Of a DNA stretch of 47,379 nt, positions 9,785 through 32,157 are shown piece by piece. Origin of the DNA: Burkholderia seminalis DSM 23518. Its GTDB lineage: Bacteria; Pseudomonadota; Gammaproteobacteria; Burkholderiales; Burkholderiaceae. Below the pieces are notes generated by a model. It saw only the letters and a program-made list of their open reading frames with translations, did not search any database and was not told the DNA's origin. Position 1 is the stretch's first letter. Every line of letters starts with the position of its first letter. The stretch is taken from positions 1 through 47,379 of the forward strand of contig NZ_CADFDK010000024.1 of the NCBI RefSeq assembly GCF_902832885.1. The letters are read 5' to 3'. A program made the position numbers and the translations under genes.

Positions 9785-9805
9785 ATTTGGTGGGGCGGCG
9801 ACAAT
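9785..9805. repeat. Putative distal attachment site: imperfect copy of the ssrA 3' end
   Basis: ATTTGGTGG-GGCGGCG followed by AATC after two differing bases. The intact ssrA 3' end at 18022-18043 reads ATTTGGTGGAGGCGGCG then GGAATC. The two differ by one deletion and two substitutions. The tRNA-like 3' end of ssrA is a well-known integration target, and this copy marks the far end of the island. Confidence 0.65.
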
Positions 9806-9862
9806 CCTATTCGGGTCGCTCCACTTTGTCAGGTAATGATCTGATGCTCGGCGCAGTGAAAA

Positions 9863-9882
9863 AAACCCCCAAAAGAACCCCC
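9863..9882. repeat. Integrase arm-site-like octamer pair, left end
   Basis: AAACCCCC at 9863 and GAACCCCC at 9875, spaced 12 bases. A pair with the same spacing and orientation occurs at 17891-17910 by the integrase gene, identical at 18 of 20 positions. The likely role is arm-type binding by integrase or excisionase. Confidence 0.55.
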
Positions 9883-9958
9883 AGATGACGCCCGTTGGCG
9901 GTCGCCTTGCCAGCGGCGCGGGGCAGCAGCGTGCTTTTGTACGAAAAAACGGCGTTCC

Positions 9959-10072
9959 GATCTACAATCCTTCACCATGGTTGCCGAGCATACGCGACCT
10001 GTAGATCAACCGCGCCTAACCTGATTGACCCACTACGGGCCGCTTAGCGTACAGGCGCGGTTTCGCTTTTTT
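9959..10072 (+). ncRNA. Structured leader or antisense RNA candidate (P1 C4 / P4 CI-like)
   Basis: AACCGCGCCT at 10008-10017 pairs perfectly with AGGCGCGGTT at 10053-10062 and is followed by TCGCTTTTTTGG, as an intrinsic terminator. The 35-base loop contains CCC-ACTAC-GGG and CTAA/TTAG. A second inverted pair, GATCTAC (9959-9965) and GTAGATC (10001-10007), lies just upstream. It sits in front of the island's plus-strand operon, where P4 CI and P1 C4 RNAs act by terminating or silencing downstream transcription. Assignment to those families is from memory of their general form and is uncertain. Confidence 0.45.
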
Positions 10073-10101
10073 GGCTTGTCGAAAAAGGAGGGGGAAGTAG
10101 T

Positions 10102-10905
10102 ATGAAGCGACCGTGGGAGAACGACAGTTGTGCAACGGTCCAAGCTTGCTACGCCGTCTACGCTGTTCCCGTTGCGGCTGCCTTATGGTGCGGCGTACCC
10201 GCTGAGGACGTGAACGAGGAGCTTGGTCGCGCAGTGTCGATTGGTCAGAGCAACGCTCTTAGCAGGGCGATTCTGCGGCATCCATACCTGAAGTGTCTTG
10301 AGCCGCGCATTCGGGCAATACACGCCGCAATCGATTCCGGCATGCTGGCGGCTTGTCGAGAGGACGGAAGGAAGGTCGACGAACACGTCGCCTATGAGCG
10401 TCGTCACGTCCACGGGCTCGCCTTGAAGGAATGGGCCAAGGAAATTGCGCCGTCCGAGCGTCCTGCATTTCTGTTTGATGAGCTTGAACGCGACACCCAC
10501 GCAGGTATCAGCGCTGAAGCGTACCGGACGCTTCAGGCGTCTCACGAAGCAAAAACGCACCAACTTGCCGAAGCGAACGAGCGTCTTCGTGAGGCAAGCG
10601 AACGGATTGCTCTCATCGAGGCCGAACGTAACTCGCTACGCGCGATGGTCGACAATTTCGATGCGCACCCAACGGCATCCGGTGAGCCAAGTGCGCGGGC
10701 CGAAACAACTTTCCTGAACATTATTGGTGCGCTGCTCGCGCTGCTGCTAGGAAAGTCCCCCGCCGGAAAGCCGCACTCGTCGTTTGCAAGTCAGGCGGCG
10801 GTGATTTCCGCGCTGCTTGCTCATCATGAGGGTAAGCCCGGCATATCAGCGCGAACGCTTGAAGAAAAATTCGCAGCGGCGAAAAGGAGCGTGAACGCGT
10901 CCTGA
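10102..10905 (+). CDS. Island protein of unknown function with coiled coil (267 aa)
   Basis: Not recognised with confidence. Residues ~1-135 form a mixed helical domain starting MKRPWENDSCATVQ. Residues ~145-195 are a coiled coil (HEAKTHQLAEANERLREASE). The C-terminal ~60 residues (FLNIIGALLALLLGKS, then SSFASQAAVISALLAHHEG and GISARTLEEKFAAAKR) look like a conserved module that I believe recurs at the end of other mobile-element proteins. The ribosome binding site GGAGGGGG is strong. Base composition is visibly more A/T-rich than the core genome, in line with transfer. It is the first gene behind the structured RNA candidate, so an early regulatory role is possible but unproven. Confidence 0.75.
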   Translation: MKRPWENDSCATVQACYAVYAVPVAAALWCGVPAEDVNEELGRAVSIGQSNALSRAILRHPYLKCLEPRIRAIHAAIDSGMLAACREDGRKVDEHVAYERRHVHGLALKEWAKEIAPSERPAFLFDELERDTHAGISAEAYRTLQASHEAKTHQLAEANERLREASERIALIEAERNSLRAMVDNFDAHPTASGEPSARAETTFLNIIGALLALLLGKSPAGKPHSSFASQAAVISALLAHHEGKPGISARTLEEKFAAAKRSVNAS

Positions 10906-11007
10906 CACATACCGCAACTGCGGCAACGGTCGCCGCAGATGCGGTGCCCGCCGTTCGGCGACTGTCAAGAATGGCCCCATGTTTAACAACTCTTTGCGAG
11001 GTTGAGC

Positions 11008-11292
11008 ATGGTGGCGAAAGAAGTACACCCAGCGCGCGCCGATGGCGCACTTGTTCGAGATATCGGCTCCCTCCCGTTGGACGGCTTCTGCCGTTGGAAC
11101 GAGCTGCGTAACTTTCTGCCCTTCAGCCGCGAAACGTTGCGCAAGCGCGAAATCGAAGGTCGTTTCCCGCGTCGGTTCCGTCTGTCCTTGCGGTGCTCCG
11201 TGTGGTCGAACCGAGAGATTCACCGCTGGTTCGCGGACCCGGTCGGCTATCGCACCGATATCGATGCGGCAACGATGACCGGGGGCCGATAA
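11008..11292 (+). CDS. AlpA-family transcriptional regulator / excisionase-like
   Basis: A 94-residue winged-helix DNA-binding protein of the AlpA (CP4-57) type. The core GFCRWNELRNFLPFSRETLR, then GRFPRRFRLSLRCSVWSNRE and IHRWF, fits the family's helix-turn-helix and Trp-containing strand. AlpA proteins activate integrase or excision in P4-like elements and are standard regulators of Gram-negative phage satellites. ATG at 11008 was chosen over the in-frame TTG at 11002 because GAGG at 10998-11001 is correctly spaced. Its stop overlaps the next start as TAATG, so the genes to 13733 form one operon. Confidence 0.87.
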   Translation: MVAKEVHPARADGALVRDIGSLPLDGFCRWNELRNFLPFSRETLRKREIEGRFPRRFRLSLRCSVWSNREIHRWFADPVGYRTDIDAATMTGGR

Positions 11293-11615
11293 TGAAAAAC
11301 GCCCGACCCAGCAAAGCCGAATCGAGCGCCAAACGTCAAAGCGAGTTTACCGGAACCGCTAACCCCCGTCAGCTTCGCGCATTGACCGTGCTGCAACGCC
11401 GCCCGATGCCGCGTGAGGAATTAGATGGCTACGTGGGGTGCAGCAACGGCCCGGACCTCATCGCGGGCCTGCGCGCAAAGGGACTCGCCTTGCCCTGCGT
11501 GCGCGTCGCTTGCATCGACCGTGATGGTATCGAAGTGCAGCGCGGCGTCTATCACCTCACGACGACCGACCGCCGCAAGGTTGCCCGTTGGCTGAAATCG
11601 CGGGAGGCGGTATGA
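11292..11615 (+). CDS. Small island protein, possible winged helix (107 aa)
   Basis: Function not recognised. The N-terminal ~28 residues are basic and polar and likely disordered. Residues ~30-105 have the pattern of a winged helix used in phage regulators: helix (LRALTVLQRRP), helix (REELDGYVGCSNG), helix (LIAGLRAKGL), then strands up to YHLTTTDRRKVARWL. It is held tightly in the operon, overlapping alpA by one base (TAATG) and the primase gene by four (ATGA), which argues for a real and co-regulated gene. Confidence 0.78.
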   Translation: MKNARPSKAESSAKRQSEFTGTANPRQLRALTVLQRRPMPREELDGYVGCSNGPDLIAGLRAKGLALPCVRVACIDRDGIEVQRGVYHLTTTDRRKVARWLKSREAV

Positions 11616-12415
11616 ACGCGATTGCGTGGAGCAGTTACGGAGCGGGCAATTCCCGCGTGCGCTGCCCCGTTTGCGGTCGCGGCGAGCGCGATAAAACGCT
11701 CGGCGTAACTGTCGACGCGAGCGGCGCGGGCGTCGCGCACTGTTTCCGTTGCGGCTTCACGGAAACGTACCGCCCCGAACGCGGCGTTTGCGGCTCGACG
11801 CATAGCATGGCACGCATTCCGGTCGTTACGCCGTCCGCGAAGCATCGCTCCCTGTCCGATTATGGGCGCGACCTTTGGAGCGCGTGTCGCGCCGTTTCCT
11901 GCGAAGCGCTGGCCTATCTCAACGCTCGGCACTGCCGCATTCCGCCCGCCGATGGCGATTTGCGCTGGCATCCGTCGCTGAAGCATCCGAACGGCTATGC
12001 CGGCCCGGCGCTCGTCGGGCTCGTGACGCACGCGGTAACGCGCGAACCCATGACCTTGCACAAAACATGGATTCGGACCGATGGCCGCAAGGCTGACGTT
12101 GACCCGCCGCGCTTGCTGCTCGGCAGGCATCGCAAACAAGGCGGCGTGATTCGCTTGTGGCCCGATGACGCAGTGTCGACCGGACTCGCCGTCGCGGAAG
12201 GTATCGAAACGGCGCTTTCGCTCGCGCACGGCTACGTGCCGGTTTGGGCCTGCATCGATGCAGGCAACCTGAAGGCACTGCCGGTGCTGGCTGGCATTGA
12301 ATCGCTGACCGTCGCTGCCGACGATGACCCGGCGGGCAAGGCCGCCGCCGCTGCGTGCGCGCAACGCTGGTCCAACGCGGGCCGCGAAGTTGTAGAGGTG
12401 AGCTATGGGGCGTGA
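11612..12415 (+). CDS. Zinc-finger Toprim primase of the island
   Basis: A 267-residue DNA primase-like protein. The N-terminal zinc ribbon has ligands CPVC (about 16-19) and CFRC (about 46-49), as in P4 alpha and T7 gp4 primase ends. The Toprim domain is at ~190-260, with the Glu motif VAEGIETALSLA and the DxD motif AADDDPAGKAAA. It should make primers for island replication with the VapE-type helicase next to it; in P4 the two activities are fused. The start at 11612 overlaps the previous stop (ATGA), and a GGGAGG motif precedes it. It overlaps the helicase gene by 11 bases. Confidence 0.9.
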   Translation: MNAIAWSSYGAGNSRVRCPVCGRGERDKTLGVTVDASGAGVAHCFRCGFTETYRPERGVCGSTHSMARIPVVTPSAKHRSLSDYGRDLWSACRAVSCEALAYLNARHCRIPPADGDLRWHPSLKHPNGYAGPALVGLVTHAVTREPMTLHKTWIRTDGRKADVDPPRLLLGRHRKQGGVIRLWPDDAVSTGLAVAEGIETALSLAHGYVPVWACIDAGNLKALPVLAGIESLTVAADDDPAGKAAAAACAQRWSNAGREVVEVSYGA

Positions 12416-13733
12416 CCTGAACGACCTTGCCGTAAGCGGCGGCGCGGAGGCCGTGCGGCGTGCTATCGCGAGCGGCACGCACATTGCAAAAGCTGAGCCG
12501 GTGCCCGATGGCGCGACGGCCGATTCGCACGTTTCGGCCGCACGCGAAACCGCCCATGCCGGCAAATTCTCGCGCGCGACGATGCATCAACTTCTCGACG
12601 TGTTGGCGGAAGACCCGGCGCTTCGCGGGCTGGTTCGCTACGACGAAATGAAGCGCCGCGTCGTCATCGCGAGTGCGCGCCCGTGGGAGGTCGCGCCGTC
12701 GCCGTACTGGACCGATGCGGACACAACGAACCTGCGCGCGTATATCGAACGCCGCTACATGCTGACGGCGGCGAAGGAACACGCGGTGGACGCGGTACAC
12801 ACGCACGCTGAACGCAACCGCTTTCATCCGCTGCGCGAATGGCTCGACGCGCTCGAATGGGACGGCGTGAAGCGCCTCGACGCGTGGCTTGCGACCTACT
12901 GCGGCGCGGACGATACGCCCTATGTGCGCGAGGTCGGGCGGCGCTTCCTGATTTCAGCGGTTGCGCGCGTATTTCGTCCCGGCTGCAAGGCCGATCACAT
13001 GCTGGTGCTGGAAGGCCCGCAGGGCATCGGCAAGTCGCGCACGGTGCGCGCGCTGGCGGGTGATGAATTTTATTCGGACGCCGTGCCGGACATGGACGAT
13101 GCCCGCCAGACAGGCGAGACGGTCGCGGGCGTGTGGCTGCTCGAAAACAGCGAAATCGTCGGCCTGCGCAAACATGAGGCGAACGCCGTCAAAGCGTTCC
13201 TCAGTCGCAGCGAAGACGCGTTCCGTCCGGCCTACGGGCGCGAGCAGGTCTATCAGCCGCGCCAGTTCGTGATGGTCGGCACGTGCAACCGCGACGGCGA
13301 AGGAACCTATCTCCGCGATGAAACGGGTGGTCGACGCTTCTGGCCCGTACCGGTCAGGGCGTGTGACATCGCCGCGTTGACGGCAGACCGCGCGCAACTG
13401 CTTGCCGAGGCGGTCGCCGCATTCCGCGATGGCGAGGTGTGGTGGATTGAGGATGACGCCATGCGGGCGCAGGCAGCGCACGAGGTGAGCGCGCGCACGG
13501 TGCAAAACCCGTGGCTCGACCATGTTGGCGCGTATCTGGAAAACCGCCCGACCGTCACGGAAGTCAAGACCGCCGATGTTTTCGTTGCCATGACGGGGCG
13601 CACGAGCACAAGCCGTGACGCAACCGAACTGCGCCACATCGCGAACGCCCTGCGTGAATTCGGCTACGTGTCGCGCAGGTTGAACACGGGCAAGGTGTGG
13701 AGCAAGGGTGAATCCAGTGAACCCACCGCGTGA
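12405..13733 (+). CDS. VapE-type replicative helicase/ATPase
   Basis: A 442-residue protein with the virulence-associated protein E domain, a P-loop ATPase common in phages and satellites. Walker A is GPQGIGKSR near 203-211 and Walker B-like acidic residues are in WLLENSEIVG near 245. The motif ETGGRRFWPV, near 306, is characteristic of the family. The N-terminal ~130 residues include FHPLREWLDALEWDGVKRLD, a feature shared by VapE proteins. With the upstream primase it forms the replication module. GAGG lies 6 bases before the ATG. The last ~9 codons carry the first pair of the iterons that follow. Confidence 0.92.
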   Translation: MGRDLNDLAVSGGAEAVRRAIASGTHIAKAEPVPDGATADSHVSAARETAHAGKFSRATMHQLLDVLAEDPALRGLVRYDEMKRRVVIASARPWEVAPSPYWTDADTTNLRAYIERRYMLTAAKEHAVDAVHTHAERNRFHPLREWLDALEWDGVKRLDAWLATYCGADDTPYVREVGRRFLISAVARVFRPGCKADHMLVLEGPQGIGKSRTVRALAGDEFYSDAVPDMDDARQTGETVAGVWLLENSEIVGLRKHEANAVKAFLSRSEDAFRPAYGREQVYQPRQFVMVGTCNRDGEGTYLRDETGGRRFWPVPVRACDIAALTADRAQLLAEAVAAFRDGEVWWIEDDAMRAQAAHEVSARTVQNPWLDHVGAYLENRPTVTEVKTADVFVAMTGRTSTSRDATELRHIANALREFGYVSRRLNTGKVWSKGESSEPTA

Positions 13734-13906
13734 ATCTTTCCGGAGAGTGGGCTCACCGCTGAAACCCGCTACGGATAAGGCTTGTCGAGATCCGGTGAAC
13801 CCAGTGAACCCATATTTCCGTAGCAATACAGAAGAAGAAAGATGCAGCAGGCGCGCGCGCGTGGCGCGTATAGGGAAAAGGCTTCACCGGGTACACCGGG
13901 TACACC
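13707..13906. repeat. Iteron cluster, candidate replication origin of the island
   Basis: Eight 9-bp iterons with consensus GGTGAACCC. Plus strand: 13707 GGTGAATCC, 13716 AGTGAACCC, 13794 GGTGAACCC, 13803 AGTGAACCC. Minus strand: 13749-13757 (GGTGAGCCC), 13880-13888 (GGTGAAGCC), 13889-13897 and 13898-13906 (both GGTGTACCC). Units abut in pairs or triplets without spacers. A more A-rich stretch (13812-13846) lies between the two arms. P4 alpha protein binds short iterons (from memory TGTTCACC, i.e. GGTGAACA) at its origin, so position next to primase and helicase genes and motif both fit an origin. Confidence 0.7.
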
Positions 13907-13938
13907 TGACAACATCACGACTTTCATGAGGTGGCGAA

Positions 13939-14370
13939 ATGCTCGATGCATTGGCAAGCGGCAAGCTGTACGGCAAGCCGGGCGAACGGACCGGCCCGAG
14001 CGGCCGCCCCTTCGTCACGGCAAAAGTGCGCGTACCCGCAGGCGACGGCGAAGCGCTTTTCGTAAACGTGATTGCGTTCTCGGACGGCGCGAAGGCCGCC
14101 CTGTTGGCGCTCGATGACGGCGATTCCGTCGCGCTGGCCGGTACGCTGACCCCGAAGGTTTGGACCGACCGCAACGGCGACGCTAAACCGGCGCTCGATA
14201 TGGTCGCGCATGCGGTTCTGAGTGCCTATCACGTCAAGCGTAAGCGCGCCGCCGTGCAAGGTGCGAACGACGGAGACGAACGCGGGAACAGACGCCCTGC
14301 TACGGACGGTGCCCGACAGGCGGCGGCGCTCTACGGCGGCGACACGTCGGACATGCAGGACGATTTGTAG
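13939..14370 (+). CDS. SSB-like OB-fold protein of the island
   Basis: A 143-residue single-stranded-DNA-binding-like protein. Residues ~1-100 fit an OB fold: strands around KPGERTGPSGRPFVTAKV, FVNVIAFSDGAK, DDGDSVALAGTLTPKVW and DMVAHAVLSAYHV. A polar linker follows and the tail is acidic (DTSDMQDDL), recalling the protein-interaction tip of bacterial SSB, though the usual terminal Pro-Phe is absent. It probably coats or organises DNA during island replication. Its start lies 33 bases after the last iteron, preceded by GAGGTGG. Confidence 0.82.
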   Translation: MLDALASGKLYGKPGERTGPSGRPFVTAKVRVPAGDGEALFVNVIAFSDGAKAALLALDDGDSVALAGTLTPKVWTDRNGDAKPALDMVAHAVLSAYHVKRKRAAVQGANDGDERGNRRPATDGARQAAALYGGDTSDMQDDL

Positions 14371-14428
14371 GCGCGGGGCAGACCGAATCGAACAGGCGTA
14401 TTACCTTTACAAATAGGAGTACGAATTC

Positions 14429-14614
14429 ATGAAAATTTCCGAACCAAAACGGCTTTTGGAACGGTTGCATTTTGACGAGATACGCGGCGAATACAGCATT
14501 TTCATTTGGCCCAGTCCGGGCGGCCAACCGCTGTATCGAGTCATAAAGCCCGGCCCTGTGAAGTACCGCGTCGAAATTCGTCCCGAAGGTTACATCGTGT
14601 TGATCCCGCGCTAA
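14429..14614 (+). CDS. Small island protein of unknown function (61 aa)
   Basis: Not recognised. A good ribosome binding site (AGGAG about 10 bases upstream) and codon use like its neighbours support expression. The sequence alternates charged and aromatic residues (FDEIRGEYSIFIWPSPGG, then VEIRPEGYIVLIPR) and would form a small beta-rich protein without membrane segments. It is followed after 23 bases by the coiled-coil gene. Small accessory genes at this position in satellites often act on the host or on other phages, but nothing in the sequence shows that here. Confidence 0.6.
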   Translation: MKISEPKRLLERLHFDEIRGEYSIFIWPSPGGQPLYRVIKPGPVKYRVEIRPEGYIVLIPR

Positions 14615-14637
14615 CGCGCCTTTTTTGGAGAATCGCT

Positions 14638-15339
14638 ATGAATCCGTTGAAGCGTCCCTTGCCCGAACGCCTCGAAGCCCTTGAAGCGCTCGCAAACGAT
14701 GCCGGTCTCACCGGCGAACTTGAGGCGAAACAGCGCGCCAAGGTTGACGCACGCCGAGCCGAACTGGCGCGCGAGTTAAAAGCTGTGCCGAACCCCGAAC
14801 GCGAACTGGCGGCTGCGACGAAGGAAGCAACTCGCGCGCGCATCGCGCTCGACGCGGCACAAACGGCATTTCGCGACGCCGACCGAGCAGACAAGCAAGC
14901 CACGGCACGGGTTGTCATGATGGAGAGGCAGCACGAAGGCGAGCAGCAGCGCATCTTGACCGAACTCGAACGCACTGCGCCGCCCGAAGTCGGCGAGGCG
15001 CTGGACGACCTATCGGATGCGGATGACCTTCTGCGTGCCGCAGTTCGGACCGACGTATTCACGGAGAAAAACTGGCTGGGCGCTCGCGTCGGCAACGTCA
15101 CGACGAACATGCCCCAAATAAAAGCCGCTCGCGCGAAAATCGCTGAGGCACAACGTAGCGTTCGCGCGCTCGTTCATGACGGGTCAATTTCAAGCGACGA
15201 ACTGGTATCGCGTGCGCGGATGCTCGTAGATGCGGCGCTGGAACCGCTGTTCTCCCTCGTGTCGCGTCAGAAGTGGGAAACTCGCCGTTCGCGGCCGCAC
15301 GGCGACCTGTTGGCCGAAGTCGCGGGCTACGGGGAATAG
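14638..15339 (+). CDS. Coiled-coil island protein of unknown function (233 aa)
   Basis: Not recognised. The protein is almost wholly helical; residues ~10-115 have strong coiled-coil character (LEALEALANDAGL, then EAKQRAKVDARRAELARELK and later VVMMERQHEGEQQRILTELE). A less regular C-terminal part contains VGNVTTNMPQIKAARAKIAE. No signal peptide or membrane segment is present. GGAG with correct spacing precedes ATG 14638. It is the last gene of the plus-strand run before the hairpin array. A structural or phage-interference role is conceivable but unsupported. Confidence 0.7.
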   Translation: MNPLKRPLPERLEALEALANDAGLTGELEAKQRAKVDARRAELARELKAVPNPERELAAATKEATRARIALDAAQTAFRDADRADKQATARVVMMERQHEGEQQRILTELERTAPPEVGEALDDLSDADDLLRAAVRTDVFTEKNWLGARVGNVTTNMPQIKAARAKIAEAQRSVRALVHDGSISSDELVSRARMLVDAALEPLFSLVSRQKWETRRSRPHGDLLAEVAGYGE

Positions 15340-16131
15340 CGGCGTGCATCGGCGGCGCGTGCGTTCTGCGCGCCGCCGTTCGTGCGTTGACTCGTTGATT
15401 CCATTACCGGCTCAATTTTGAGCCGGTCAAAATCATCGCTGATGCTTCGTAGCAGCGCGCAATTTTGCGCTCACGAACTCCGAGTCGATGTAAGCCGTTG
15501 ATTCCATAACGCCCTCAAAATTGAGGCGGCCGAAATCGATCATCGACCCAAGTCCCGTTGATTTCATTGCCAACGCAAAAATGCGTCGGCGAAGTCGGTC
15601 GGCGCGCGCGCAGAAGCGACCGGCATCTGACCGTCGCATTACGGGGAGCTTGGCACGCTGCGCGTGTCCGTGCGCGACGCCGGACGTCCGGCGATGAAGC
15701 CGGCCCGCGCCGGGCGCATTACGCTACGCGATGGCCAATTCTCCGCATGCGCTGACCGTAGCGGGCCGGCTGCAGCATGTCGGCGCGAACGCTGTTGAAC
15801 AGGTCCGACATGCACGCCGCAGGCTCATCGGCGAGCATGTAATCGAGCATCCGAATTACCTTGAACGTCCGGAATCGCGAACGTACAGGCGGCGACCGAA
15901 CCCACCGCGAAGCGAACGGATTGCGGGCGTTTGAGGCCGTCGACGTGCGCGCTGGTAGGGCGAACCTTGACTAACGCGCGCGAGCGGCGCAGCGGCACCA
16001 CCGCAACCGTCCGCGAGGCATCCGCCGTACCCGGTAGGGGGTGCAAATCCCTAGGCCGCGCGGTCCGGTGATCGTGGCGCAACGCGAATTTTTGCAACGT
16101 CAGCACCAAAACCATTTTTCGGGAGCGAATC
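15340..16131. other. Long non-coding stretch between coiled-coil gene and terS
   Basis: About 790 bases with no gene I can support on either strand. The first part holds the hairpin array (15394-15590). From about 15640 to 16130 there are only short frames without ribosome binding sites. A small hairpin TAGGG/CCCTA lies at 16035-16053. As terminase genes usually follow the packaging site in cos-type phages, a cos-like or other packaging signal may lie here, but none is recognisable by eye. Confidence 0.45.
15394..15590. repeat. Array of four hairpins with related flanks and differing stems
   Basis: Hairpins: 15407-15426 CCGGCTCAATTTTGAGCCGG; 15457-15470 GCGCAATTTTGCGC; 15510-15529 CGCC-CTCAA-AA-TTGAG-GCGG; 15573-15586 ACGCA-AAAA-TGCGT. 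Units one, three and four begin with GTTGATT(C/T)CAT at 15394, 15497 and 15557; units one and three end in AAATC and CATCG. Centres lie 47, 56 and 60 bases apart. Stems differ while pairing is kept, which suggests a structural role in DNA or RNA. Confidence 0.65.
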
Positions 16132-16596
16132 ATGCCGCAGAAATCGAACGCCGCGAAGGCGCTTTCCGGCACGTTGCGTGCCGACCGGCTCAAGGGCATC
16201 GCGGCCGACCAATTGACCGTCGCGCCGCCACCGCCCGCTGGCATGTCATCGCGTGCGGCTGCGGAATGGAACCGCGTCGCGCCGCTCGTCGTGAGCTTGG
16301 GTCTATTGAGCGCGTCCGACCTGCGCGCGCTCGAACTGCTGGCCGAAACACTTGCGACCGAGGCGCAATTACGCGAAACGCTGGACCGTGAAGGGTTGAC
16401 GATTGCGACCGGAACCGGCGGAAGCAAGGCGCATCCGGCGCTGCGCGCATTGAGCGACGCACGCGCGCAAGCGGCCCGGCTGCTCGATGCGTTCGGCCTG
16501 AGTCCGCGCGGTCGGCAAGCTATCGACGCGCCGCCACCGGTGCCGGCCGACAATCCCTATGCGGCGTTCGTTAAGCCGACGCGCGGGCCGGGGTAA
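16132..16596 (+). CDS. Phage terminase small subunit, P27 family
   Basis: A 154-residue TerS protein. Family features are the leader with LSGTLRADR, the helix WNRVAPLVVSLGLLSASDLR, then LATEAQLRETLDREGL, and the C-terminal HPALRALSDARAQAARLLDAFGLSPRGR near 105-133. Small terminases select the DNA to be packaged and hand it to the large subunit. No large terminase, portal or capsid gene accompanies it here, so it would have to redirect a helper phage's machinery, or it is a remnant. GGGAG precedes the ATG. It converges on the integrase gene with 9 bases between stops. Confidence 0.9.
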   Translation: MPQKSNAAKALSGTLRADRLKGIAADQLTVAPPPPAGMSSRAAAEWNRVAPLVVSLGLLSASDLRALELLAETLATEAQLRETLDREGLTIATGTGGSKAHPALRALSDARAQAARLLDAFGLSPRGRQAIDAPPPVPADNPYAAFVKPTRGPG

Positions 16597-16605
16597 ATCG
16601 CGCGG

Positions 16606-17847
16606 CTACCGTGTCGCCGCGCTGAACGGGATGACTTCTGCACCCGCCTTGAGTTGGTCGAGGTAGTCTGCCCATTTCTGCATCATTTCGCGACGCTGGG
16701 ACAGGTGCGCGGTGCGGTTGTACGCGCGCCCGAGCGGGTCTTTCACTGCGTGTGCGAGTTGGGCCTCGATGATCGCCGCCGGCACGCTCAGGACTTCATC
16801 AAGGATTGTGCGAGCCATTGCCCGGAAGCCGTGACCGGTCATTGTGTCGCCGTCGTACCCGAGTCGGCGCAACGCGCCGTTGATGGTGTTGTTGGACATC
16901 GGCCGATCCTTTGTGCGTACGCTCGGAAAGAGCAGCCGGCCGTTGCCGGTAAGCGCGTGCAGCTCTCGCAGGATATTTACGGCTTGACTCGATAGCGGGA
17001 CGATATGCGCACCACCGGCCGCCTTGCCTTGTTTCGTGCGTTTCATTCGTTCACCCGGTATTTCCCAGATGCCGCTGTCTAGGTCGACCTCGGCCCACTC
17101 GGCGGCGCGCAACTCGCCGGGGCGCTGGAATAGCAGAGGCGCGACCCGCAAGGCGCACCACACGGGAAGCGTGCCTTGATAGCCGTCAATCGCGCGCAGA
17201 AGCCCGGCGACCTGCTTCGGATCGGTAATGGCCGCCATGTGCGCAGATTGCACGGGCGGAAGTGCGCCCCGTAAATCGGCCGTCACATCGCGCTGGGCGC
17301 GTCCGGTTGCTACGGCATAGCGGCATACTTGGCTGACGTTCGCGTGCAGGCGGTGGGCTGTTTCGAGCGCGCCGCGCTTCTCGACCCGGCGCAGCACATC
17401 GAGCACATCCGGCGGCACGAGGTCGGCAACGGGCTTGCCGCCGATCCACGGGAAGGCATCTACCTCTAGGCGGCGTAGGATGCGGCCCGCGTGGCCATCC
17501 GACCAAGTGGGCGCGTACTTGGCGTGCCACTCACGCGCCACGGCCTCGAAGGAATTTTCTGCATTGAGCCGCTGTGTGCGCTTCTCGGCTTTCTTTGCCG
17601 CTCCCGGATCAATCCCCGCCGCCAGCTTGTCTTTGGCTTCGTCGCGTCGCTTGCGAGCCTCGACGAGCGACACGGCGGGGTAGGTGCCGAGCGCTAAGCT
17701 TTTCTCTTTGCCGGCGAATCGGTACTTGAGCACCCAGCGCTTGCCGCCGGTCGGTTTGATGAGCAGGAACAGTCCGCCGCCATCGAATAGCTTCTGCTGC
17801 TTGTCAGTGGGCTTGGCATTACGGATCGCTACGTCGGTCAGGGCCAT
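16606..17847 (-). CDS. Tyrosine integrase of the ssrA island
   Basis: A 413-residue P4-type site-specific recombinase. The N-terminal DUF4102-like domain begins MALTDVAIRNAKPTDKQQ, with GTYPAVSLVEARKRRDEAK typical near 60. The core-binding domain is about 100-190. Catalytic residues are visible: Arg in QRPGELRAAEW, HxxR in GHGFRAMART, His in AQLAHAV and the nucleophile Tyr in GRAYNRT. The start at 17847 gives the standard N terminus; the open frame continues upstream through ssrA, but that is not coding. It lies directly downstream of ssrA in the same direction, the usual arrangement for ssrA-targeted islands. Confidence 0.94.
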   Translation of the reverse strand: MALTDVAIRNAKPTDKQQKLFDGGGLFLLIKPTGGKRWVLKYRFAGKEKSLALGTYPAVSLVEARKRRDEAKDKLAAGIDPGAAKKAEKRTQRLNAENSFEAVAREWHAKYAPTWSDGHAGRILRRLEVDAFPWIGGKPVADLVPPDVLDVLRRVEKRGALETAHRLHANVSQVCRYAVATGRAQRDVTADLRGALPPVQSAHMAAITDPKQVAGLLRAIDGYQGTLPVWCALRVAPLLFQRPGELRAAEWAEVDLDSGIWEIPGERMKRTKQGKAAGGAHIVPLSSQAVNILRELHALTGNGRLLFPSVRTKDRPMSNNTINGALRRLGYDGDTMTGHGFRAMARTILDEVLSVPAAIIEAQLAHAVKDPLGRAYNRTAHLSQRREMMQKWADYLDQLKAGAEVIPFSAATR

Positions 17848-17862
17848 ATCCGCTCCGGTGCT

Positions 17863-17945
17863 GGGGGTTCCGGGTTGGGGGTTCCGCAAAGAACCCCCGA
17901 AAGAACCCCCGTCGATGTATGGCTGTAGCTGGGGGTTCTTTGCGG
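17863..17945. repeat. Integrase arm-site-like octamers, right end
   Basis: Five copies of the octamer: GGGGGTTC at 17863, 17877 and 17931, and its complement GAACCCCC at 17891 and 17903. CCGCAAAGAACCCCC (17884-17898) and 17931-17945 form a perfect 15-base inverted repeat. With the two copies at the other end there are seven, concentrated where integrase, excisionase and the int promoter should act. Confidence 0.6.
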
Positions 17946-17951
17946 TAGTTT

Positions 17952-17971
17952 GCAACAAAAAACCCCGCAGA
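17952..17971. repeat. 20-bp direct repeat, right copy
   Basis: Identical to 9730-9749. Here it forms the T-tract arm of the terminator now serving ssrA, which the island appears to have brought in to replace the displaced original. Confidence 0.8.
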
Positions 17972-17991
17972 GCAAAGCCCGGCGGGGTTTT
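17957..17991 (-). terminator. Terminator of ssrA (island-supplied)
   Basis: AAAACCCCGC at 17959-17968 pairs with GCGGGGTTTT at 17982-17991; on the minus strand the stem runs into TTTTTT. A further perfect hairpin, GCCAAACGTT-GGA-AACGTTTGGC at 17995-18017, lies between it and the ssrA 3' end. Confidence 0.85.
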
Positions 17992-18024
17992 CTTGCCAAA
18001 CGTTGGAAACGTTTGGCGGGTATT

Positions 18025-18394
18025 TGGTGGAGGCGGCGGGAATCGAACCCGCGTCCAGAAGCGCTCCACGACTAGTTCTACATGTTTAGTCCAGTCTTTT
18101 GATTTAACCGCAGCGACGCGGACGAACACGCTGCACTACGGCGATTCGCTAGATTTTCGACCCTGGCGTCGCGACGCCGACAGGGCTTAACTGACGTAAA
18201 TGACCTCTGGCGGTATTGCTACCGGTCTTGCGACACTAGCCCGTCAGTGAACTAGGCAGAGGACGGCGGCCCTTAGGCTGCCAGTGCGAACGTATCGTCG
18301 TTTGCAGTTACGATTTTCCCATTGATTAACGAGGTGACGGGTCCTCGACATGCCCTAGCCGCTTCACAACCCCTGTCGAAACCAGGTCGCCCCC
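18025..18394 (-). ncRNA. ssrA: tmRNA (ssrA)
   Basis: A one-piece tmRNA of about 370 bases that rescues stalled ribosomes and tags incomplete proteins. The 5' end GGGGGCGACCTGGTTTCGAC pairs with the 3' acceptor strand CGCCTCC followed by ACCA; the T arm GGGTTCGATTCCCG is visible next to it. The tag frame at 18305-18273 encodes ANDDTFALAA and stop, with the resume codon GCA. The encoded 3' end is intact although it serves as the island attachment site. The -10 box lies at 18411-18416, implying a short 5' leader removed by RNase P. Confidence 0.97.
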
Positions 18395-19991: not shown

Positions 19992-20660
19992 TTAGTTTGC
20001 CGGAACGGTCGTCTTCTGCACTTGCTGCGTACCAACCACTTCGACTTCCACGCGGCGGTCCGGTGCGAGGCAGGCGATGAGCTGCTTGCGGTTCTTCTGG
20101 TTGCAGCCAGTCGTAACCGGGTTGCGCTTGCCCTTGCCTTCCGTGTAGATCTTGTTGGCCGGCACACCCTTGCTGACCAGGTACGACTTCACGGCTTGCG
20201 CACGGCGCAGCGACAGACGGTCGTTGTACTTGTCCGAACCGATGCGGTCCGTGTAGCCCGTTGCAACGACGACTTCCGTGTTCATGCCTTCGATCTTCGA
20301 AGCCAGTTCGTCCAGCTTTTGCTTGCCCAGCGGCTTGAGCGTTGCCTTGTCGAAGTCGAACAGTGCGTCGGCTTGATACGTGATCTTCTGGCTCGTGATG
20401 GCCGGAGCGACCGGAGCGACCGGCGGCTGCGGTGCCTGGGCGACCAGTGCGCCATCGCACTTCGCGTTGGCGGTGGCCGGCGTCCAGAACGCATCGCGCC
20501 AGCAGAGCTCGTTCGTGCCGTTCATCCACACCCATTCGCCCGTGCCGTTCACCCAGTTGTCATTGACGGCTTGACGCGACGCCGGCACCGACTGTGCCGA
20601 AGCGGATGCAGCCATAACTGCGGTAGCTGCAATGAACGCGAGCTTTGAAAGTTTATTCAT
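19992..20660 (-). CDS. OmpA-family outer-membrane / peptidoglycan-binding protein
   Basis: A 222-residue exported protein with signal peptide MNKLSKLAFIAATAVMAASA (cleavage after SAQ region). The N-terminal mature part has an unusual Trp-rich segment (NWVNGTGEWVWMNGTNELCW). Residues ~95-215 are the OmpA C-terminal peptidoglycan-binding domain, with LFDFDKATLKPLGKQKLDEL, then GYTDRIGSDKYNDRLSLRRA. There is no beta-barrel of OmpA size, so it tethers the outer membrane to peptidoglycan rather than forming a pore. It is highly expressed in relatives, in line with a strong terminator and GAGGAG ribosome binding site. Confidence 0.9.
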   Translation of the reverse strand: MNKLSKLAFIAATAVMAASASAQSVPASRQAVNDNWVNGTGEWVWMNGTNELCWRDAFWTPATANAKCDGALVAQAPQPPVAPVAPAITSQKITYQADALFDFDKATLKPLGKQKLDELASKIEGMNTEVVVATGYTDRIGSDKYNDRLSLRRAQAVKSYLVSKGVPANKIYTEGKGKRNPVTTGCNQKNRKQLIACLAPDRRVEVEVVGTQQVQKTTVPAN

Positions 20661-21186
20661 ATTTCTCCTCTCGAAATTGAGATTACCGCAGGTTTACTGC
20701 GAGCCTGTTGACGGTGACAAGTCATACATTGCTCGAAGTATAACATTGGTGCGGCACAAAAAACGCGGCACCGCTCTGTGTAGACTTCGAGCAGCGTCTA
20801 ACTTTCAGTGCGTTGGCATTTTGCCATATCGTTCCCTTCCTACGAAAAAAAATCCTCCCCACCCTAAGATCGCTTCAACTTTGTGGTGCATGCGCAACAC
20901 CGCCCTGCCGCAACTTTTAGAGATTGTCAAGAGTGTGTCGGCGAAATTGCGCGAATGTGTGCTGTTGTTTACACGTGTGCGCGAAACACGCGTGACGGGA
21001 TGGCCTGCGACGTCGCGTCGCGTGCGATGTCGGTCGAATCGCCGCTGCCGCGATTTTTGCTATTTATATATAGAGGGGTCGCGAATTGGCGGCTGATGGG
21101 CGCATGTTAGAATCTCGCGTTGCGTTGCGCATGCAGCGCCCACGCGAAAGGCGTTCGCCGTCTTCGCTCCGAAACGATACGGATAC
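20661..21186. other. Divergent control region ompA-like / gyrA
   Basis: About 525 bases without a gene, rich in A and T for this genome. Minus strand: TATACT at 20737-20742 is a -10 candidate for the OmpA-like gene. Plus strand: TTGGCG (21086-21091), a 16-base spacer and TAGAAT (21108-21113) form a fair gyrA promoter; an A/T run around 21059-21075 may be a second. Repeated GTGTG and CACGCGTG motifs at 20930-21000 are unexplained. Confidence 0.55.
21086..21113 (+). promoter_or_regulatory. Candidate gyrA promoter
   Basis: TTGGCG, 16-base spacer, TAGAAT; the start codon lies 74 bases downstream. Both hexamers match the sigma-70 consensus at four or five of six positions. Confidence 0.5.
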
Positions 21187-29956: not shown

Positions 29957-30098
29957 GAAGGCGGGCAGCGGTAGGTGTTCCGCGTCGCAAGCGCGGAGCG
30001 TGTTTCGAACCCTTAACCCCGTGTGGTCATCGATCTGGCCCTTTCAGCCTGCCATTCCGGCCGGCGTGGCACAGCGATCCATGCACAATCAGATTTTT

Positions 30099-31811
30099 AT
30101 GTCCGACCTGCAAACCTCCACCCCGAATACCGAATCCTTTGCGGCTCTGTTCGAAGAGTCGCTGACCCGCCAAGACATGCGCGCCGGCGAAGTGATTTCC
30201 GCCGAAGTCGTGCGCGTCGACCACAACTTCGTGGTCGTCAATGCAGGCCTGAAGTCCGAGGCTTACATTCCGATCGAGGAATTCCTGAACGATCAGGGCG
30301 AGGTTGAGGTGCAGTCGGGCGATTTCGTGTCCGTCGCGATCGACGCACTCGAAAACGGCTACGGCGACACGATCCTGTCGCGCGACAAGGCAAAGCGCCT
30401 TGCATCGTGGCTGTCGCTGGAAAAGGCACTCGACAACAACGAACTCGTCACCGGCACGATCACCGGCAAGGTGAAGGGCGGCATGACCGTGATGGTCAAC
30501 GGCATCCGCGCGTTCCTGCCGGGTTCGCTGGTCGACACGCGTCCGGTCAAGGACACGACCCCGTACGAAGGCAAGACGCTCGAGTTCCGCGTGATCAAGC
30601 TCGATCGCAAGCGTAACAACGTCGTGCTGTCGCGTCGTGCCGTGATCGAAGCAACGCAAGGCGAAGAGCGCGCGAAGCTGCTCGAGACGCTGAAGGAAGG
30701 CGCGATCGTCAACGGCGTGGTCAAGAACATCACCGACTACGGCGCGTTCGTGGACCTCGGCGGCATCGACGGCCTGCTGCACATCACCGACATCGCATGG
30801 CGTCGCGTGCGTCACCCGAGCGAAGTCCTGTCGGTTGGCCAGGAAGTCACCGCGAAGATCCTCAAGTTCGACCAAGAGAAGAACCGCGTCTCGCTGGGCA
30901 TCAAGCAACTGGGCGACGATCCGTGGGAAGGCATCTCGCGCCGTTACCCGTCGGGCACGCGCCTGTTCGGCAAGGTCACGAACATCACCGACTACGGCGC
31001 ATTCGTCGAAGTGGAATCGGGCATCGAAGGCCTCGTCCACGTGTCGGAAATGGACTGGACCAACAAGAACGTTGCGCCGTCGAAGGTTGTCCAGCTGGGC
31101 GACGAAGTCGAAGTCATGGTCCTCGAGATCGACGAAGACCGTCGTCGTATCAGCCTCGGCATGAAGCAGTGCAAGCCGAATCCGTGGGATGACTTCAGCC
31201 GCAACTTCAAGAAGGGCGACAAGATCACGGGCGCAATCAAGTCGATCACCGACTTCGGCGTGTTCATCGGTCTGCCGGGCGGCATCGACGGCCTGGTCCA
31301 CCTGTCGGACCTGTCGTGGAGCGAAGCCGGCGAAGAAGCCGTTCGCAAGTACAAGAAGGGCGACGAAGTCGAAGCCATCGTGCTCGGTATCGACGTCGAG
31401 AAGGAGCGTATTTCGCTCGGCATCAAGCAACTCGAAGGCGACCCGTTCAGCAACTACGTTGCAATGAACGACAAGGGCTCGATCGTCGACGGCGTCGTGA
31501 AGACGGTCGATGCGAAGGGTGCGGTCATCACGCTGACGGGCGACATCGAAGGCTACCTGCGTGCGTCGGAAATCTCGCAGGATCGCGTCGAAGATGCACG
31601 CAACGTGCTGAAGGAAGGCGACAAGGTCAACGCGATGGTGATCAACATCGATCGCAAGTCGCGCGGCATCAACCTGTCGATCAAGGCAAAGGATTCGGCT
31701 GAGCAACAGGAAGCGATCCGCGGCCTGCAGTCGGACACGAGCGCTGCTGCGACCGGTACGACCAACCTCGGCGCGCTGCTGAAGGCGAAGCTCGACGGCC
31801 AGAACCAGTAA
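30099..31811 (+). CDS. rpsA: 30S ribosomal protein S1
   Basis: A 570-residue protein that binds mRNA and brings it to the 30S subunit. Six S1/OB-fold repeats are present; the third to sixth are clearest by the recurrent TDYGAFV or TDFGVFI turns ([56 protein letters not shown]). Length is slightly above E. coli S1 (557). The start [10 protein letters not shown] is that of Burkholderia S1; ATG 30081, six codons upstream in frame, is a less likely alternative. Neither has a strong Shine-Dalgarno sequence, as is usual for rpsA. Confidence 0.97.
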
Positions 31812-31833
31812 GCCTCACGAGGTCTGCTGAAGT

Positions 31834-32157
31834 ATGACCAAATCCGAGTTGGTCGCGCAGCTGGCATTGCGATTTCCGCAACTTGTCCTCAAGGATGCGG
31901 ATTTCGCGGTGAAAACGATGCTCGATGCGATGTCCGATGCCCTGGCGAAAGGGCATCGCATCGAAATTCGGGGTTTCGGCAGCTTCGGCCTCAACCGTCG
32001 CCCGGCGCGCGTCGGACGCAACCCGAAGTCGGGGGAGAAAGTGCAGGTGCCCGAGAAGTTCGTGCCGCACTTCAAGCCTGGCAAGGAATTGCGCGAACGC
32101 GTCGACGGCCGCGCCGGTGAACCGCTGAAGGCTGACGATCCGGACGACGAGCGTTGA
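31834..32157 (+). CDS. ihfB: Integration host factor beta subunit
   Basis: A 107-residue DNA-bending protein acting as a heterodimer with IhfA in recombination, replication and transcription. The core [17 protein letters not shown], then [20 protein letters not shown] with the DNA-intercalating beta arm, is typical. The C-terminal ~12 residues are an acidic extension ([11 protein letters not shown]) beyond the E. coli length of 94. It follows rpsA by 22 bases and ends at a strong terminator. Confidence 0.96.

Follow-up and report, generated by a model that had tools for sequence, protein, structure and literature searches.

A probable phage satellite at ssrA in Burkholderia seminalis with its own HK97-type small terminase and a cos-like site

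Phage satellites have their DNA packaged in several ways. In the available text of PMC10690885, P4 and some Staphylococcus aureus pathogenicity islands (SaPIs) are packaged at a cos site by the terminase of the helper phage, other SaPIs use a small terminase (TerS) with a pac site, proteobacterial phage-inducible chromosomal islands (PICIs) use the protein Rpp with a cos site, and capsid-forming PICIs (cf-PICIs) rely on a complete terminase; the strategies listed there do not include a lone HK97-type TerS next to a cos of its own. Here we describe an element that appears to carry this combination, within a stretch of 47,379 nt from Burkholderia seminalis DSM 23518 (contig NZ_CADFDK010000024.1; hereafter the window). 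The element, of 8,237 bp counting one copy of the attachment (att) core, extends from 9785 to the 3' end of the transfer-messenger RNA (tmRNA) gene ssrA. It is probably a helper-dependent, PICI-like, cos-packaging satellite, whose own TerS and cos would recruit the large terminase (TerL) of a helper. We found no description of a lone HK97-type TerS with its own cos in a satellite in the accessible parts of the literature, subscription papers and preprints being outside the scope.

Gram-negative PICIs, as far as the accessible parts of the sources describe them, are small islands with an integrase gene (int), the regulator AlpA and a primase or rep gene, of which some carry a terS homologue (PMC6092414), and are near 10 kb in size (PMC10803314). 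Some PICIs carry homologues of capsid-morphogenesis genes. The element resembles such islands (EcCICFT073, PmCI172) in its size, its int, AlpA and primase-helicase genes and, tentatively, in the repeats 3' of its replication gene, and we found no virion or lysis gene in it. Two listed PICI features were absent: transcription in one direction, as int lies on the opposite strand, and an att site never used by prophages, as ssrA integrases 83-88% identical to the element's own occur in elements that hold virion or baseplate genes (loci L088 and L092). We therefore call the element PICI-like, and not a PICI. In Escherichia coli PICIs, Rpp redirects the helper TerS at the PICI cos (PMC6739421, PMC10690885, both in part), whereas the element encodes an HK97-type TerS itself and has a cos-like site that has diverged. 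A lone terS as such is not a novelty, as Gram-negative islands with a terS homologue were already known (available text of PMC6092414).

The element shares features with both kinds of SaPI described in the available text of PMC5052747: pac SaPIs (SaPIbov1) carry a lone terS that works with the helper TerL, and cos SaPIs (SaPIbov5) carry a phage-type cos. SaPIs keep these strategies apart, with either terS and pac, or cos and only the 3' part of terS, whereas the element has both a terS and a cos-like site. Headful pac packaging, as in the staphylococcal islands with terS, is less likely here than a cos-type mechanism of the HK97/SfV group. No homologues of ccm, cpmAB or ppi were recognised among the open reading frames (ORFs) scanned. 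P4-like satellites are marked by the P2-helper genes sid, psu and delta, and no Pfam match to Psu, Sid or Delta was found among 10 ORFs of the element at E <= 0.01. In P4 the P2 terminase acts at the cos sites, whereas the element has its own TerS. Cos packaging by a helper's terminase, as proposed for the element, is common to both (PMC10690885, in part), and so is a slot for defence genes, which in P4 satellites is a hotspot next to cos (PMC9122126, in part). The cf-PICIs also encode a small terminase (PMC10690885, in part), together with TerL, HNH, portal, protease and major capsid proteins, none of which were found among the element's 10 scanned ORFs. PICMIs (phage-inducible chromosomal minimalist islands) integrate at fis and, in the accessible part of PMC10803314, lack a packaging-redirecting gene such as terS, unlike the element, which lies at ssrA and carries terS. 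Finally, the phages SfV, SfII and HK97 and Burkholderiaceae P27 prophages (L020, L021, L073) share the P27/HK97-type TerS, and a cos region lies directly before terS in SfV, SfII and the prophages; unlike the element, all carry TerL and structural genes, and SfII also an annotated HNH gene.

The lone small terminase and its relatives

We identified the TerS of the element as a P27 protein by PF05119 (Terminase_4; 72.2 bits against a cut-off of 24.7, E 4.8e-20), with agreement from PHROGs and a score over the cut-off of NCBIfam TIGR01558 (55.1 against 45.6). The best structural neighbours of its model, which reached a predicted local distance difference test score (pLDDT) of 73 only, were HK97 TerS; a sequence search of the PDB gave no match. 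Family scans with Pfam and PHROGs took in 10 of the 84 listed ORFs, the rest being short, overlapping or outside the element, and detected in these 10 no family of TerL, portal, capsid, tail or lysis proteins. A tblastn search of the whole 47-kb window with three TerL and one capsid protein was likewise empty (E <= 1e-3). The set of integrase, AlpA, Toprim primase, VapE, SSB-like protein and P27 TerS named in the initial annotation, and its statement that virion, lysis and large terminase genes are missing, were borne out by these Pfam, PHROGs and NCBIfam results, and the reading as a phage satellite with a lone small terminase gains support from the relatives, the purifying selection on terS and the cos-like site described below.

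The insertion at ssrA, also proposed initially for a compact element of about 8.2 kb, was confirmed by a repeated att core, the tmRNA (tag sequence ANDDTFALAA) and empty sites in related genomes. Among the 11 comparison genomes, chosen because they matched the left flank best, nine held the uninterrupted site ...GCGGAATTTGGTGGAGGCGGCGGGAATCG..., in which ssrA is joined straight to the left flank, and two (G049, G043) were interrupted. The element has a G+C content of 63.0%, against 68.5% and 65.9% in its flanks, and belongs to a genome (G000) of 7.97 Mb in 55 contigs. In the excised circle, int and the plus-strand operon would diverge from the attachment site, as had been suggested and as follows from the coordinates.

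TerS was present in 12 of 65 genomes of the genus, namely the element's own, three with close copies (G008, 96%; G012, 93%; G019, 91%), two with decayed copies (a stop in G005, L018, and a fragment in G040, L019, both beside tRNA-Arg) and six with distant copies (28-32%). Five of the distant copies were prophage loci in which TerL follows terS (L020, L021, L084-L086), and the sixth (G045, L022) was a satellite-like locus without TerL match, which has genes for a DUF3987 protein, a ParB/N6-methylase and a P27 TerS of its own, the methylase gene being preceded by a clear cos-like site. The decayed copies, at the same tRNA-Arg, are marks of lost islands. In the three intact close relatives (L015, L016 and L017), terS is the last island gene and adjoins tRNA-Arg, within islands of 8,439, 8,699 and 8,495 bp bounded by tRNA repeats of about 50-60 bp. 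Their integrases, co-directional with terS, are of another kind, to which the element's integrase gives no match, and VapE is replaced by DUF3987 in L015 and L016 and by an AAA_25 protein in L017; orf8 and terS are common to all three, and orf7 and ssb only to part of them. The initial annotation had noted that a simple deletion would be expected to leave close relatives with TerL, portal and capsid genes after terS. None of the three showed TerL or the tested capsid protein by tblastn, portal being judged from the reading of ORFs.

We additionally identified a second island in G012, L087, at tRNA-Val, without P27 terS. Its genes are, in order, alpA, orf3, primase, an AAA_25 protein, ssb, orf7, orf8, a gene of 145 aa and a convergent integrase with 66% identity to the element's. 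A 12-bp repeat, at 4246 and 12666, probably marks the ends of the island, which would then measure 8,420 bp. G012 thus carries two members of the group, L016 with terS at tRNA-Arg and L087 without it, and these could therefore share TerS. The five members at 8.2-8.7 kb suggest a packaging size limit, set by small capsids or by several copies per full-size capsid.

Across 398 genomes, we found 57 P27 places in 49 genomes and read 41 loci (the element, L015-L017, L020-L022, L073-L086 and L142-L161), 25 with TerL and 16 without a match (the element, L015-L017, L022, L078, L079, L083, L147, L152-L156, L159 and L160). The tblastn queries were the TerL of L020, SfV and L074, with that of L020 alone for one batch of loci, so that TerL of other families could be missed; L020 and L074 are themselves among the TerL-bearing loci. 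L160 is uninformative on TerL because a contig end cuts the locus next to terS, and in L156 a gene for a prohead protease (Peptidase_S78, E 1.3e-11) stands behind the lone terS. Other satellite-like loci with the lone-terS plan are L022, L078, L079 and L083.

Among four genes tested, terS was the most constrained, with dN/dS of 0.06-0.14. TerS of the element's type is 26-31% identical to prophage TerS, and TerS of the L022 type 34-40% in one locus set and 27-44% in another. In a search for close terS relatives, phage records gave only that of Gordonia phage Mcklovin (38%; 2 records of one phage), the plasmid collection gave no match, no relative was confirmed in one scan of viral contigs, and the genome-contig collection yielded one close locus, at the same place as L017. 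VapE matched 983 phage records, all below 60% identity, and thus has no close phage source among them.

The cos-like site upstream of terS

A site 40-100 bp upstream of terS, which the initial annotation had not noticed, is akin to the cos sites of phages with a P27 terminase; the stretch 16022-16110 shows the sequence relatedness expected of an HK97/SfV-type cos site just upstream of terS. Its non-coding part at 16033-16093 is common to L087 and L015, with 80% identity over 61 bp to L087, and in L016 the site is placed before a cargo gene, which separates it from terS. P27 prophages show, upstream of terS and in the same order, a G-run, an AAnTCT-type motif, a GACCG-type motif and mostly ATTTTT. 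The SfV record starts and stops inside its cos region, and SfII shows the region joined. In the accessible parts of the sources, the 10-nt cos gap TGCCCGCCCC of SfI, of the same group, was located experimentally (PMC3636060), and the SfIV cos was reported identical (PMC3851460).

We searched 17 sequences (692,590 nt) with a hidden Markov model (HMM) built from phages only (12 prophages, SfV and SfII, with L074 left out). It gave 14 matches at E <= 10, including L079 (E 1.7e-4) and L087 (2.1e-4) at the expected place and weaker matches at the site in L022 (0.24), L078 (0.99), L015 (2.1) and L017 (3.6); eight of the 14 lay elsewhere, the best at E 0.44. When single elements were searched, the expected place was best in L015, L017, L087, L078 and L079, and in L022 the best match lay in the clear site before the methylase-terS operon. 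When Smith-Waterman scores against the 14 phage sites were averaged, the site was equalled by no other stretch in six of eight elements, including the element itself (z 5.9; 0 of 1,602 stretches as good), the exceptions being L016 (7 of 1,708) and L017 (8 of 1,664); the sites were picked beforehand (that of L022 after the HMM), and each was scored at seven offsets with the best one kept, which favours it slightly.

A sequence-only site model (R1), built from 10 prophages, L087, L079 and L022 without the element's own site, was run with strict filters on 65 whole genomes; in alignment A4, the row of L080 lacked its 3' part. R1 matched 18 places at E <= 0.1, spread over 16 genomes: six training members, one held-out prophage (G030, 2.1e-23), four held-out satellites, all at the expected site (G008, 4.3e-7; G000, 5.4e-4; G019, 0.0023; the G012 tRNA-Arg island, 0.0029), and seven further matches (G038, G052, G063, G036, G022 and two in G025). 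In G000 the element's site was the only match. Three of the further matches (G038:C101:34337, G052:C3:440710 and G025:C436:88990; E 7e-4 to 3e-3) may be other satellites or chance. Because L087 belongs to the same gene pool, R1 indicates a specific and shared site, while the link to phage cos rests on the phage-only HMM for L087, L079 and L022, and on the Smith-Waterman scores for the element.

The phage-only HMM counts against a cos in the element: too weak to find the site, it gave no match there in the 692,590-nt search, and within single elements it ranked the element's site second (E 1) and left that of L016 outside the top five. The same model found no cos match near the terS of L083. 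In L074, which belongs to another group of P27 loci and carries TerL, no such site could be recognised. A blastn search of phage records with just the site gave nine weak matches, to phages of other hosts.

In the available text of the sources, HK97 TerS stalls the motor at cos, with the HNH protein GP74 promoting cleavage (PMC9410871), and the minimal HK97 DNA-binding site lies 15-29 bp downstream of cos (PMC7617512, a review citing Chechik 2023). Phage sites have a CCCGCGAAA-type box at about this distance, which is kept in L022 and in L087, the TerS-less sister with the more phage-like cos. L079 has the variant AAGCGAAA, and the element, L015, L016, L017 and L078 differ from the phage box. 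Such a pattern, judged from sequence and taken with the TerS identities given above, would fit a TerS/site pair that has moved away from that of the helper. We tentatively suggest a matched pair, in which the element's TerS goes with a cos of diverged TerS-binding box, while TerS-less sisters such as L087 may use the helper's TerS. In this small sample L078, with a TerS of the L022 type and a differing box, is an exception.

Gene map and cargo slot

From left to right, the element holds orf1, alpA, orf3, the Toprim primase, vapE, ssb, orf7, orf8, terS and the convergent integrase (Table 1); about 790 bp of intergenic DNA separate orf8 from terS. The integrase probably starts at 17847 rather than 18129, and the start of orf8 was corrected to 14638. 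No usable family was found for orf1, orf3 or orf7 in the library scans, and a structure search with orf8 gave no neighbour at E <= 0.001.

Table 1. Features of the element and its target gene, in window coordinates
Feature	Position	Strand	Basis or remark
Left att core ATTTGGTGG	9785..9793	.	9-bp repeat shared with 18022-18030; host DNA to the left
orf1, 267 aa, coiled-coil-like	10102..10905	+	sub-threshold coiled-coil match only
alpA regulator/excisionase	11002..11292	+	Phage_AlpA, E 2e-5
orf3	11292..11615	+	common to L017 and L087; predicted start
Toprim primase	11588..12415	+	Toprim_3 and DUF7146 (E 2.4e-14; 4.2e-17)
VapE-type helicase	12405..13733	+	VapE-like_dom, E 1.8e-71; phrog_256, 8e-100
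Possible replication origin	13708..13823	.	repeats around the vapE stop; putative
ssb-like gene	13939..14370	+	SSB, E 4.3e-7
orf7, 61 aa	14429..14614	+	conserved in L015, L016, L087
orf8, helical coiled-coil protein, marker of the satellite group	14638..15339	+	model pLDDT 83
Cargo slot, no convincing gene in the element	15340..16021	.	
cos-like site	16022..16110	+	best-scoring part 16033-16093
terS, P27/HK97-type small terminase	16132..16596	+	family models
ssrA-specific tyrosine integrase	16606..17847	-	family scans, ssrA relatives
Right att core ATTTGGTGG	18022..18030	.	at the tmRNA 3' end
ssrA (tmRNA), the intact target gene of the host	18025..18394	-	

The possible origin contains GTGAAYCCA repeats at 13708, 13717, 13795 and 13804 and an inverted TGGGCTCAC at 13748, a pattern without a control for chance, and no clearly AT-rich stretch lies between the repeats. 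Between orf8 and terS, L015, L016 and L017 carry genes of 586, 497 and 556 aa, which encode defence-like AAA_15/AAA_21 ATPases. PADLOC matched AriA (2e-31) and Old (1.4e-28) in L017 and ATPase-Toprim_I-B (3.2e-43) in L016; its ATPase models cross-match widely (103 to 142 families per gene), and no one system was assigned from them. An AIPR gene lies beside terS in the lone-terS locus L083.

Behind orf8, at 15393-15597, we observed three palindromic repeats of the type CGTTGATTCCATTACCGGCTCAATTTTGAGCCGGT, of which a 25-bp stretch is 96% identical in L079 (locus 10921-10945), from a genome of another genus. Integrases 83-88% identical to the element's stand beside ssrA not only in L088 and L092, which hold virion and lysin-type genes and a baseplate hub gene, respectively, but also in L089, L090, L091 and L093; the ssrA elements of L089, L090 and L092 measure about 12-16 kb from att-like sites, and the tmRNA lies further away in L089 and L088. 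The G+C content dips to 57-61% at 20001-21000 and 30001-32000, outside the element.

Proposed cycle and competing explanations

The purifying selection on terS and the cos-like site upstream of it support a packaging role of TerS. Infection by a helper, or its induction, would raise AlpA and integrase, which would excise the element from ssrA, and the primase, VapE and SSB would replicate it from the possible origin near vapE. Its own P27 TerS would then bind the cos-like site and mark concatemers, which the TerL of a helper, an HK97/SfV-type cos phage, would cut and package into helper proheads. A P27-type helper, the only type covered by the search, would need to enter from outside, because neither a PF03354 TerL nor a second P27 TerS was found in G000.

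The element might alternatively be what is left, static or decaying, of a larger cos prophage or capsid-forming island after loss of its TerL, portal, capsid and tail genes. Lone terS loci do decay, as in G005 and G040 beside tRNA-Arg, and the prohead protease gene after the lone terS of L156 would suit such a history. Nonetheless, the matched domains of alpA, vapE, terS and int are nearly complete, purifying selection is strongest on terS among the four genes tested, and sizes are constant at 8.2-8.7 kb. Three relatives whose integrases differ also end at terS and give no TerL match, and on this ground simple prophage deletion was rejected; we regard a remnant as very unlikely.

An unlikely main function for TerS is that of an interference decoy, which would titrate or misdirect the helper's TerL and shield the host rather than package the satellite. 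The defence-like ATPases in the slot agree with this, as does the finding, in the available text of PMC5052747 and PMC6739421, that packaging is a usual target of satellite interference. However, a cos-like site is kept upstream of terS, and in L087 even without terS, which fits packaging better, and the two roles are compatible with each other. We give equally little credence as to a remnant to the idea that the conserved site serves the last operon, of cargo and terS, as promoter, operator or terminator, rather than being a cos. It does precede terS, the cargo gene in L016, the methylase-terS operon in L022 and the 145-aa gene in L087, and a terminator scan flagged 16072-16087, although its 11 regional finds compare with 11.5 expected in shuffles. 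Its sequence relatives, by contrast, are phage cos regions, including both ends of the SfV record and SfII, and no sigma-70-like match was found at the site, in a promoter scan that was uninformative overall; one site could also serve as both promoter and cos.

In the accessible parts of the literature, satellites with a described cos depend on the helper's terminase or TerS or encode a complete terminase, a lone TerS is paired with a described site in pac islands, and Gram-negative islands with terS are mentioned without a packaging site. If cos packaging with an own TerS is true, the element would offer a small system for how a cos TerS chooses DNA, and for how far a foreign TerL works with it. 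Our data point to a Burkholderia satellite group in which a slot for defence genes adjoins cos, as the hotspot does in P4; if the matched pair also holds, borrowing the helper's TerS and bringing an own TerS would both occur within one gene pool, with a defence slot beside cos.

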